IMG/VR virus record: IMGVR_UViG_3300048554_000021
Location: 1-30,745 of that record
DNA length: 30,745 nt
Source: a virus
Direction: 5' to 3' (one strand)
The first letter of the stretch is position 1, and every line of letters starts with the position of its first letter. Positions 21,055-24,115 of the stretch are shown in pieces. The translations under genes and the position numbers were made by a program. A model generated the notes under the pieces. That model ran no database searches, had not been told where the DNA came from, and saw only the letters and a list, made by a program, of their open reading frames with translations.

Positions 21055-21942
21055 TTAATTTTTTATGGTTTTAAGTTTTAATCCGTATTCATTAATACCC
21101 TTTTTTTTAATATAATCATCACGAAATATAAGTTTATTTTCTTTTTTAAATTTATTGTAATTTACATAATGATGATGTCTACCATATCGCCATACAAGTT
21201 TTGTAACATCTGGGTGCAATTTCATTTGCATATTAGATTTAGGGATTGTTCCCTCTTTTGCATAAAATTCGTCTGTATTGCCACCTTTTAATGTTTGAGT
21301 ATTAGCTTTTTCCTGTAAAAATACATTAAATTGAACTGTACACCACCCTTTTTTTAAAATTCTTAACGATAAATCTGTATCTTCATTATATCTACCCCTC
21401 CATCTATCTGGTAAAGGCAAATCATTTCTAATAAGGTTACATGAGTATATTCTGGTATTAACTGTAAATGGTGTATATTGATGCCCCCATTTATCTATAA
21501 CAAAAAATGTATAATTTGGTCCCGCCATTCCTATATTTTTATATCTTAATACAAAATCTTCCATAACTTTAAATGGTGTAGCATCTGTACATTTGACTTC
21601 AATGTTATTTTGCCATCTTCTAAAACATTTAATATTATCGTCCATAACCCAATGCCATTTGTAACCTCTATCTATAGAATGTTGCCAAATAAAATTTCTA
21701 GCGGGTCCAGGTCCTTTTGATTTTTTATCGCCTAAATCGTCGCAGGTATCGTAATCTTTCTGGTAGGTCTTATCTAATACAACTATTTTTTTCTTATCTA
21801 TAACCTTCGCATAGTCTGAGTATTCTTGTTCTTCTACAACAATGCTATATGAAACACCCATTTGTTCTAGTACTTTTGCTGTTAACCTTGAATCTGCTCT
21901 GCCTTTTGATGGAATATAAATTGGAAATTGATTACTTTTCAT
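21055..21942 (-). CDS. TET-associated-type glycosyltransferase (TAGT family)
   Basis: 295 residues. FPIYIPSKGRADSRL (6-20), SYSIVVEEQEYSDY (31-44), GPARNFIWQHSIDRGYKWH (79-97) and WVMDDNIKCFRRW with the sugar-nucleotide DDN at 101-103 are the hallmark order of TAGT glycosyltransferases, which in characterised phages transfer sugars to hydroxymethylated pyrimidines in DNA. Then RYNEDTDLSLRILKKGWCTV contains a second acidic cluster, and HHHYVNYNKF lies near the end. I see no TET/JBP dioxygenase or hydroxymethylating enzyme in the window, so the target is unclear. It overlaps the ParB-like gene by 11 bases and lies 32 bases before terS. Confidence 0.85.
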   Translation of the reverse strand: MKSNQFPIYIPSKGRADSRLTAKVLEQMGVSYSIVVEEQEYSDYAKVIDKKKIVVLDKTYQKDYDTCDDLGDKKSKGPGPARNFIWQHSIDRGYKWHWVMDDNIKCFRRWQNNIEVKCTDATPFKVMEDFVLRYKNIGMAGPNYTFFVIDKWGHQYTPFTVNTRIYSCNLIRNDLPLPDRWRGRYNEDTDLSLRILKKGWCTVQFNVFLQEKANTQTLKGGNTDEFYAKEGTIPKSNMQMKLHPDVTKLVWRYGRHHHYVNYNKFKKENKLIFRDDYIKKKGINEYGLKLKTIKN

Positions 21943-22552
21943 AATACTTATCTTTGATTACATTTTTTTCTATAAAAGGAAACCAAATATATTTTGTTTT
22001 TTCTGTATAATCTTGCTTAATTAATTGAAAGAATTTTTCAACAGCATCTTGGTTTACAAAGTTAACTGTTAAAGACCTAAATGGTGACTGGTCTGAATGT
22101 TCAAAACTAGGCATATCTTGCCAATGTTCTTCAGTATCAAGCCAATTCCTTGAATTATGGTCAGATTGAAATATTATTGTTTCTAATTCTTGCTCCTCAA
22201 AACCTAACTCATCTATATTAAAATTTATTTCTTTAAGAGCATCTATTTCAAGTTTTAATAAATCATAGTCCCAACCTGCATCTTCTGATATTCGATTATC
22301 TGCTATACGATATGCTTTTGCTTTTGCTTCAGATAAATCAGCCATCAAAACTGGAACTTTTTTTAGACCTAATTTTTGTGCTCCTAAAAGTCTAGTATGA
22401 CCAACAATAACAACCATATTTTTATCAACTACAATAGGTTGCTGAAAACCATATTCATTAATGGAACTTGCAACTTTATCAATATCTTGGTTTTTTCTTG
22501 GGTTATTATGATAAGGTATTAACTTATCTGTTTCTATTTCTTGAATATTCAT
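21932..22552 (-). CDS. ParB-like N-terminal domain protein
   Basis: 206 residues. KLIPYHNNPRKNQDIDKVAS, NEYGFQQPIVVD and IVGHTRLLGAQKLGLKKVPV (GHTRLLGA at 51-58) are the ParB/sulfiredoxin-fold N-terminal motifs that bind nucleotide (CTP in ParB). KAYRIADNRISE follows. The C-terminus (FRSLTVNFVNQDAVEKFFQL; YIWFPFIEKN) is a separate small domain I associate with phage ParB-like proteins. There is no ParB DNA-binding HTH or methyltransferase domain. It overlaps both neighbours, so it belongs to the glycosyltransferase operon. A role in DNA modification, partition-like binding or transcription is inferred, not shown. Confidence 0.85.
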   Translation of the reverse strand: MNIQEIETDKLIPYHNNPRKNQDIDKVASSINEYGFQQPIVVDKNMVVIVGHTRLLGAQKLGLKKVPVLMADLSEAKAKAYRIADNRISEDAGWDYDLLKLEIDALKEINFNIDELGFEEQELETIIFQSDHNSRNWLDTEEHWQDMPSFEHSDQSPFRSLTVNFVNQDAVEKFFQLIKQDYTEKTKYIWFPFIEKNVIKDKYYEK

Positions 22553-23203: not shown

Positions 23204-24040
23204 TTATCCCCTAAAATCTAAATATTTTTTAGCTTGGTCTTTAGTAAATTTGCCTTCACCTATTGCTCTTTCAACATCACTTGAATACCTTTGAGCATAA
23301 CCTTTAATAAATGAACTGCCTTTTTTAGCATCTACAGCTTCCTTAAACATCTTTAATCTCATAACGTAAGGGTCAGCAGTACTTGTATTTTGTTTCTTGG
23401 GTTGTTCATCTAAATACTTTTTAGCTGATAACCAAAATGCAGGCTGTTTAGCAAATTGCTTGTCTTCAATAGAATTATAATAAGTTGAATACATATCTGC
23501 TAGTTTTTCTGGGTTTTCTAACCATTCTTTTTCTATTTTTAAATAGTTCTTTTCAGCTATACCCTTACTAACTTTATTAGGTATCTTTTCCCAAAATTTA
23601 TTAAAATAAGAAGTATTATTTATCTTGGTTTTGGTATTGGTAGGGGTAGGGGTAGGGGTAGGGGGGTTTTGGCTAGGTTTTTTTGGTCTTCCTCCTAACT
23701 TGCCATTTACCTTAGAAGCCTCTATTCTTCCTGTAATATATAAATATTCTTGTAGCTGTCTTTCGTTCTGATAATGCGAACCAATTAAAACAAAAAACTG
23801 CTCTAATATATTTTTACAGCCTTCTTTTTCACTATCTGTTATGCAATTACCAATTCTATAATAAGTATTTTCGTTATTTAATATCCCAGAACATCTTTTA
23901 TTCCAGTTCCAACAAAGTAATCGAATATATATCCCTATTTCTTCGTTAGAGAGGTGTTGAGTACCCGCAATGAAATCTTCTGTGAAAAGATACCATGCTT
24001 TTAATTTCTCTTTTGGCTTTGAATTTTTTTCTATGAACAT
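23204..24040 (-). CDS. DUF1376-type replication initiator-like protein
   Basis: 278 residues from the ATG at 24040, chosen because TTGGAG stands 6 bases upstream (a TTG 12 bases earlier is the only alternative). N-terminal DUF1376 pattern: AWYLFTEDFIAGTQHLSNEE, IGIYIRLLCWNWN and ASKVNGKLGGRPKKP. A Pro-Thr linker at about 124-140 is encoded by a CCCCTA-type repeat. The C-terminal half is helical (KFWEKIPNKVSKGIAEKNYL; QFAKQPAFWLSAKKYLDE; SDVERAIGEGKFTKDQAKKYL). Such proteins are the O-like initiators of small phages that borrow the host replisome. No polymerase or helicase is seen, so this is the best replication gene in the window. Confidence 0.8.
   Translation of the reverse strand: MFIEKNSKPKEKLKAWYLFTEDFIAGTQHLSNEEIGIYIRLLCWNWNKRCSGILNNENTYYRIGNCITDSEKEGCKNILEQFFVLIGSHYQNERQLQEYLYITGRIEASKVNGKLGGRPKKPSQNPPTPTPTPTNTKTKINNTSYFNKFWEKIPNKVSKGIAEKNYLKIEKEWLENPEKLADMYSTYYNSIEDKQFAKQPAFWLSAKKYLDEQPKKQNTSTADPYVMRLKMFKEAVDAKKGSSFIKGYAQRYSSDVERAIGEGKFTKDQAKKYLDFRG
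23643..23666 (+). repeat. G-quadruplex-forming hexanucleotide repeat inside the initiator gene
   Basis: Plus strand: four runs of at least four G separated by TA (GGGG at 23643-46, 23649-52, 23655-58, and six G at 23661-66). This fits a canonical intramolecular G4 with two-base loops. On the coding strand it writes alternating Pro-Thr codons (ACC CCT). It is the most G-rich stretch I noticed in an AT-rich genome. Confidence 0.9.
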
Positions 24041-24115
24041 AATTATCTCCAATCTAATTATTTTTAATATATATAAATTAACCTAAAATGAAACCTATTT
24101 TTAATTATAGGTTAA
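24041..24115 (-). promoter_or_regulatory. AT-rich intergenic region before the initiator, with AACCTA repeats
   Basis: About 71 bases separate the PD-(D/E)XK stop from the initiator ATG. It contains the inverted pair TTAACCTA (24078-24085) and TAGGTTAA (24108-24115), plus an extra direct AAACCTA at 24091-24097. On the minus strand CCTATAATTA gives a -10-like TATAAT. A promoter or operator for the initiator is plausible. The AACCTA/TAGGTT motif recurs upstream of the early block at 29023-29044. Confidence 0.45.

Follow-up and report, generated by a model that had tools for sequence, protein, structure and literature searches.

The replication origin of phage lambda resides in the middle of gene O, where extra iterons lengthen the O protein (PMC7466680), and the Rac prophage of Escherichia coli carries an active origin, oriJ (PMC3945230), whose placement relative to the prophage gene ydaU was not found. 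The window analyzed herein, a whole stretch of 30,745 bases (33% GC) from a virus contig, carries a replication initiator gene of the DUF1376 family, and an original prediction made for this DNA proposed a lambda-like origin in the linker segment of that gene together with a G-quadruplex. Taken as a whole this interpretation was partly supported: an origin inside the linker is well supported by conservation at the DNA level, as judged from sequence comparison, and the G-quadruplex is considered below with its rivals.

The run in question, GGGGTAGGGGTAGGGGTAGGGGGG, was located exactly at positions 23643-23666 of the plus strand, and was confirmed to be unique and exceptional in this AT-rich record, as dinucleotide shuffling of the window is expected to yield three GGGG runs at the observed spacing only 0.02 times per shuffle. 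It comprises four runs of at least four G separated by 2-nt loops, and no single-strand secondary structure was predicted by a program that does not model G-quadruplexes. Read on the minus strand it encodes PPTPTPTPT (CCC followed by four CCT ACC codon pairs), and because the initiator gene lies on that strand, the G-rich strand is the template for transcription, as had been proposed. The encoded Pro-Thr stretch likewise proved to lie in the linker between the DUF1376 part and the C-terminal part. The run is the portion of a longer array, overlooked in the original prediction, in which the two free bases of the repeated unit are C, and the opposite strand therefore displays GGGGTA runs. The features discussed below are as follows.

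23204..24052, minus strand: DUF1376 replication initiator gene (starting with TTG at 24052 or with ATG at 24040; Pfam PF07120, PHROGs).
23759..23983, minus strand: DUF1376 domain, putative DNA-binding domain (residues 20-94 from the ATG).
23627..23679, minus strand: proposed iteron array of eight [A/T]ACC cores, the densest cluster in the record, with the core kept in three frames.
23625..23660, minus strand: six [A/T]ACCNN hexamers in strict tandem, which make up the regular core of the array.
23643..23666, plus strand: G-run and potential G-quadruplex, the G-rich strand of the array where it takes its CCCCTA form.
23561..23624, minus strand: AT-rich stretch 3' of the array on the coding strand, a possible (weak) unwinding element.
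23207..23605, minus strand: ordered C-terminal helical domain, putative partner-binding part (replication-initiation PHROG matches over residues 97-223).

The initiator matched the DUF1376 profile (PF07120) with 47.5 bits against a cut-off of 30.1 and thus belongs to this family, and it also matched PHROGs 9327 (primosomal), 270 and 9474 (both replication initiation). Folded alone, the DUF1376 domain was predicted to adopt a confident helical plus beta-hairpin structure (pLDDT about 84-98 over the core), and in the predicted structure of the initiator the linker residues 117-140 were disordered between two ordered flanking domains; the repeats at 23627-23679 thereby occupy a disordered linker between ordered domains, the arrangement expected of a lambda O-type origin. 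A structure search with the N-terminal domain returned only weak winged-helix-like matches (MarR, CAP, MotA and the DnaD N-terminal domain), none with an E-value below 0.3, and no solved structure was found among the sequence relatives of the initiator. When bacterial genomes were scanned for DUF1376 relatives, no locus could be confirmed. Genes for helicases or helicase loaders often lie 3' of the DUF1376 genes in several cultured phages. In the window no gene could be recognized as a helicase loader, and the annotation of phage HTVC112P lists none. A search that left most subscription journals outside gave five papers mentioning DUF1376, and no title or abstract among them concerned an origin.

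In the window, the eight cores of the array occur in the order AACC, AACC, five TACC and AACC, with spacings of 11, 8, 6, 6, 6, 6 and 6 bp. Such a density, eight [A/T]ACC within 53 bp, was found nowhere else in the record, the next best place having three, and 23625-23660 was the sole case on either strand of at least three [A/T]ACCNN units in a row. Taken alone, the linker of the window was marginal (p = 0.003 by resampling and 0.08 by permuting), and the strength of the case comes from the relatives, which are not phylogenetically independent. The 60 bp following the array averaged 74% AT in the relatives, compared with a gene mean of 67% and with 73% expected from the protein alone, and hence showed no AT-richness above the synonymous expectation. 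A GC-skew minimum at about 23.6 kb, which had been suggested as a check, was absent, the skew being monotonic with its minimum at the end of the record; since the genes sit almost exclusively on one strand, GC skew is a weak and uninformative test here.

We then read the linkers of 80 IMG/VR relatives codon by codon (81 genes with the window), and compared word counts in the linkers of 40 non-redundant relatives with those expected from synonymous codons. Codon usage in the linker was quite distinct from that in the rest of the gene: ACC accounted for 70% of Thr codons in the former versus 9% in the latter, CCT for 81% versus 35% of Pro codons, and CTA for 85% versus 17% of Leu codons. Among the 593 Pro codons of the linkers, 445 were CCT followed by A and 104 were CCC, and by these counts selection favours CCT plus A over CCC, which is the opposite of what selection for G-runs would produce. 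The word CCTA was counted 261 times in the 40 linkers, whereas resampling gave 75 +/- 7 and permutation of the linker's own synonymous codons still only 203 +/- 5 (maximum 216). The conserved core is best described, from these word statistics, as [A/T]ACC, which occurred 348 times against 117 +/- 6 expected (maximum 134); AACC alone, outside the PT tandem, occurred 189 times against 95 (maximum 116).

This conservation was independent of the reading frame. The [A/T]ACC words were distributed over the three frames as 55/117/176, and were read as NL, PS, PR, PI and TP codons in different relatives. Adjacent pairs exactly 6 bp apart occurred 128 times against 6.9 expected, and the frame-breaking spacings of 7, 8 and 11 bp occurred 91 times against about 7; in many relatives the cores lay 11-12 bp apart. 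The repeats are thus conserved as DNA beyond what coding needs, as expected of an origin of the lambda O type.

A similar picture emerged in the more distant HTVC112P clade (about 29% protein identity), which comprises HTVC112P gp14 and 45 relatives. All 46 genes carried exactly five CCTANN units. Each Pro was encoded by CCT (230/230, compared with 69/169 elsewhere), and the codon of the next residue always began with A, with the free bases varying. In further cultured DUF1376 phages, picked by protein similarity and not by repeat, the top enriched words relative to synonymous resampling were AACC, TAACC and TAACCA, the pooled count of TAACC being 25 versus 6.8 (maximum 13). Pseudomonas phage MR13 carried six AACC exactly 7 bp apart with each frame used twice, and AACC occurred in all frames in Methylophilaceae phage P19250A (spacings of 7, 7, 7, 15 and 7 bp) and Acinetobacter phage IME-Ap7 (8, 8, 8 and 8 bp). 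Among 18 cultured phages other than HTVC112P, 11 had direct repeats in excess of the synonymous null (p <= 0.03); AACC enrichment was individually significant in only 5 of 17, and none was detected in RHph_TM3, phiKX1 or Mwe-JY08. The linker of P19250A (L569:877-1542) also contains repeated CAACGGGCGTT words beside its AACC array.

The array was further revealed to accompany the type of initiator. Of 126 loci, 124 had their densest CCTA/TAGG cluster within the initiator gene. The terminase of the window is closest to those of Pelagibacter phages HTVC026P, HTVC112P, HTVC202P and HTVC111P (56-57% identity). The terminases of HTVC026P, HTVC202P and HTVC111P are 78-82% identical to that of HTVC112P, and these phages annotate a DnaD-type initiator, the gene for which lacks a CCTA array; the window, the terminase of which is only 57% identical to that of HTVC112P, nevertheless shares with it both DUF1376 and the array. 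These observations indicated that the array follows the initiator, since phages with similar terminases and a DnaD-type initiator lack it and the window with DUF1376 has it. A terminase or packaging site was accordingly rejected as a candidate, as the array does not track terminase similarity.

Some neighbouring observations deserve record. The DnaD-type initiators of HTVC026P, HTVC202P and HTVC111P (L551:5686-6252, L552:5014-5589 and L553:5278-5856) contain, at the equivalent place, CCACC clusters above the synonymous expectation, which are possibly intragenic iterons of their own. The window encodes on its minus strand a protein with a ParB-like N-terminal domain (21932-22552), found also as HTVC112P gp17 and in many, though not all, array-bearing loci, and a TET-associated glycosyltransferase (PF20691; 21055-21942) that suggests modified bases in the phage DNA.

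How the array should be explained was weighed against several alternatives. The G-quadruplex of the original prediction would act on the template strand, stalling RNA polymerase or opening the duplex and so serving as an origin or a regulator. The four runs of the window and their short loops speak for it, as do the two-G runs recurring in all relatives, which are however a by-product of the repeated CC. Four runs of at least three G were possible in only 25 of the 81 genes (window included) and in none of the 46 genes of the HTVC112P clade, and the number of G-runs varied among relatives, many having none. Relatives with G-quadruplex-incompatible linkers, the very result that the original prediction had named as refuting it, were thus found among close kin; considering in addition the selection for CCT-A and the wide core spacing of many members, a conserved or functional G-quadruplex is very improbable, and the G-quadruplex look is most likely a side effect present only in some relatives. 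A slippage-prone Pro-Thr repeat of variable length and without DNA function, also raised earlier, is no more probable. Slippage may add units, in keeping with the 0 to 4 tandem CCTACC units seen among relatives and with a 6-nt unit that preserves the frame, but it offers no account of a word kept in three frames: slippage of a Pro-Thr unit cannot yield a word that is read variously as Asn-Leu, Pro-Ser, Pro-Arg, Pro-Ile and Thr-Pro. Frame-breaking spacings and the fixation of five units with varied free bases throughout the HTVC112P clade also run counter to it, and as a complete explanation slippage is, on the sequence comparison, refuted by frame-independent conservation.

Selection on the mRNA, where a C-rich and G-poor coding strand with the rare Thr codon ACC would cause a translational pause between the domains, draws on the scarcity of ACC elsewhere in the gene, but leaves the fixed 6-, 7- or 8-bp spacing of the word in all frames unexplained, and we regard it as the most improbable of these readings. 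More serious, albeit still unlikely, is that the array binds protein without being an origin, serving as an autoregulatory operator, in packaging, or as the site of the nearby ParB-like protein. Binding of the array by the initiator is itself an inference, the window and HTVC112P each have a ParB-like gene nearby, and ParB-like matches were obtained in 88 of 133 loci. Conversely, the array occupies the middle of the initiator gene as opposed to a promoter, its occurrence tracks the initiator and not the terminase, and no ParB-like match was obtained for many loci that bear the array and include about 3 kb of downstream sequence.

The array is most likely a replication origin, because the relatives preserve the [A/T]ACC word in all three frames, and we consider it quite probable that it is a lambda O-like intragenic origin, the iterons of which serve as binding sites for the product of the very gene that contains them. 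In the proposed mechanism, short iterons spaced 6 bp apart, with the core 5'-[A/T]ACC-3' on the coding strand, would constitute the origin within the initiator gene, and the N-terminal DUF1376 domain of the encoded initiator would bind the array; the C-terminal domain would then recruit the helicase machinery of the host or the phage, and the neighbouring AT-rich stretch may open. Being disordered and permissive for many residues, the linker can accommodate such a DNA signal, and a 6-bp unit makes the array read as a dipeptide repeat (PT, PI or PS).

Scans of viral contigs for GGGGTA or CCTANN arrays picked up initiators from further PHROG families as well; in some of these the repeat sat on the opposite strand or was read in another frame (GV, GL, GR and PL). 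Initiators of this kind at L106:4716-5681, L126:5595-6404, L134:4333-5229, L158:873-1706 and L413:8619-9500 bear GGGGTA or TAGGNN arrays whose G-rich word is carried by the coding strand (GV, GR and GL). The habit of placing repeats in the linker would thus seem wider than DUF1376, as suggested by loci found by pattern and hence biased by selection. Such scans select on the repeat and also return Pro-Thr-rich structural proteins. The CCTANN scan gave 27 DUF1376 genes in 96 matches compared with 3 in 108 for the control CCATNN, which itself returns some initiators; this excess is a lead and not a result, because most of the 27 fall in one clade and were selected by repeat. We tentatively entertain, at rather lower confidence than for the window itself, the generalization that DUF1376 proteins are origin-binding initiators with 6-8 bp [A/T]ACC iterons in their own linkers, and that many dipeptide linkers of phage initiators in several families (PT, PI, PS, PL and GV) represent such origins. 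The array offers a concrete, testable candidate origin for pelagiphage-like marine phages, proposes a likely function and binding site for DUF1376, a family of unknown function, and points to frame-independent repeats in initiator linkers as a general route to phage origins. A further lesson is that a DNA signal can cast its shadow as a low-complexity protein linker or an apparent G-quadruplex.

Compared with known systems, the window resembles G-quadruplex origins in its four G-runs and differs from them in that these runs are not conserved in relatives. In the Rac prophage, ydaU is a relative and is followed by ydaV, a putative replication gene; unlike in the window, the repeats in the ydaU linker are weak and none has the AACC core. 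Among ydaU relatives (L567:826-1896 and L564:826-1683), the Eco683R6 linker contains TGTTCAAAC repeats and an inverted copy, a possible place for an oriJ-like origin. HTVC112P, MR13, P19250A and IME-Ap7 are alike in having a DUF1376-family initiator with short repeats in its linker, and the latter three share the AACC core with the window; they differ in their unit of 6, 7 or 8 bp, with HTVC112P keeping five CCTANN, and none of the four is annotated with an origin in the linker. As in lambda and the lambdoid phages, the repeats lie in the initiator gene between the DNA-binding and C-terminal domains, and in the lambdoid phages their number varies from phage to phage, lengthening the protein (PMC7466680). 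Unlike in lambda, the initiator domain of the window is DUF1376, and an AT-rich element is not clear beyond what the protein predicts. The window and its relatives also use short direct units of 6-8 bp with an [A/T]ACC core, whereas the iterons of lambda are longer. What is proposed herein is a new and well-supported variant of the lambda-type intragenic origin.
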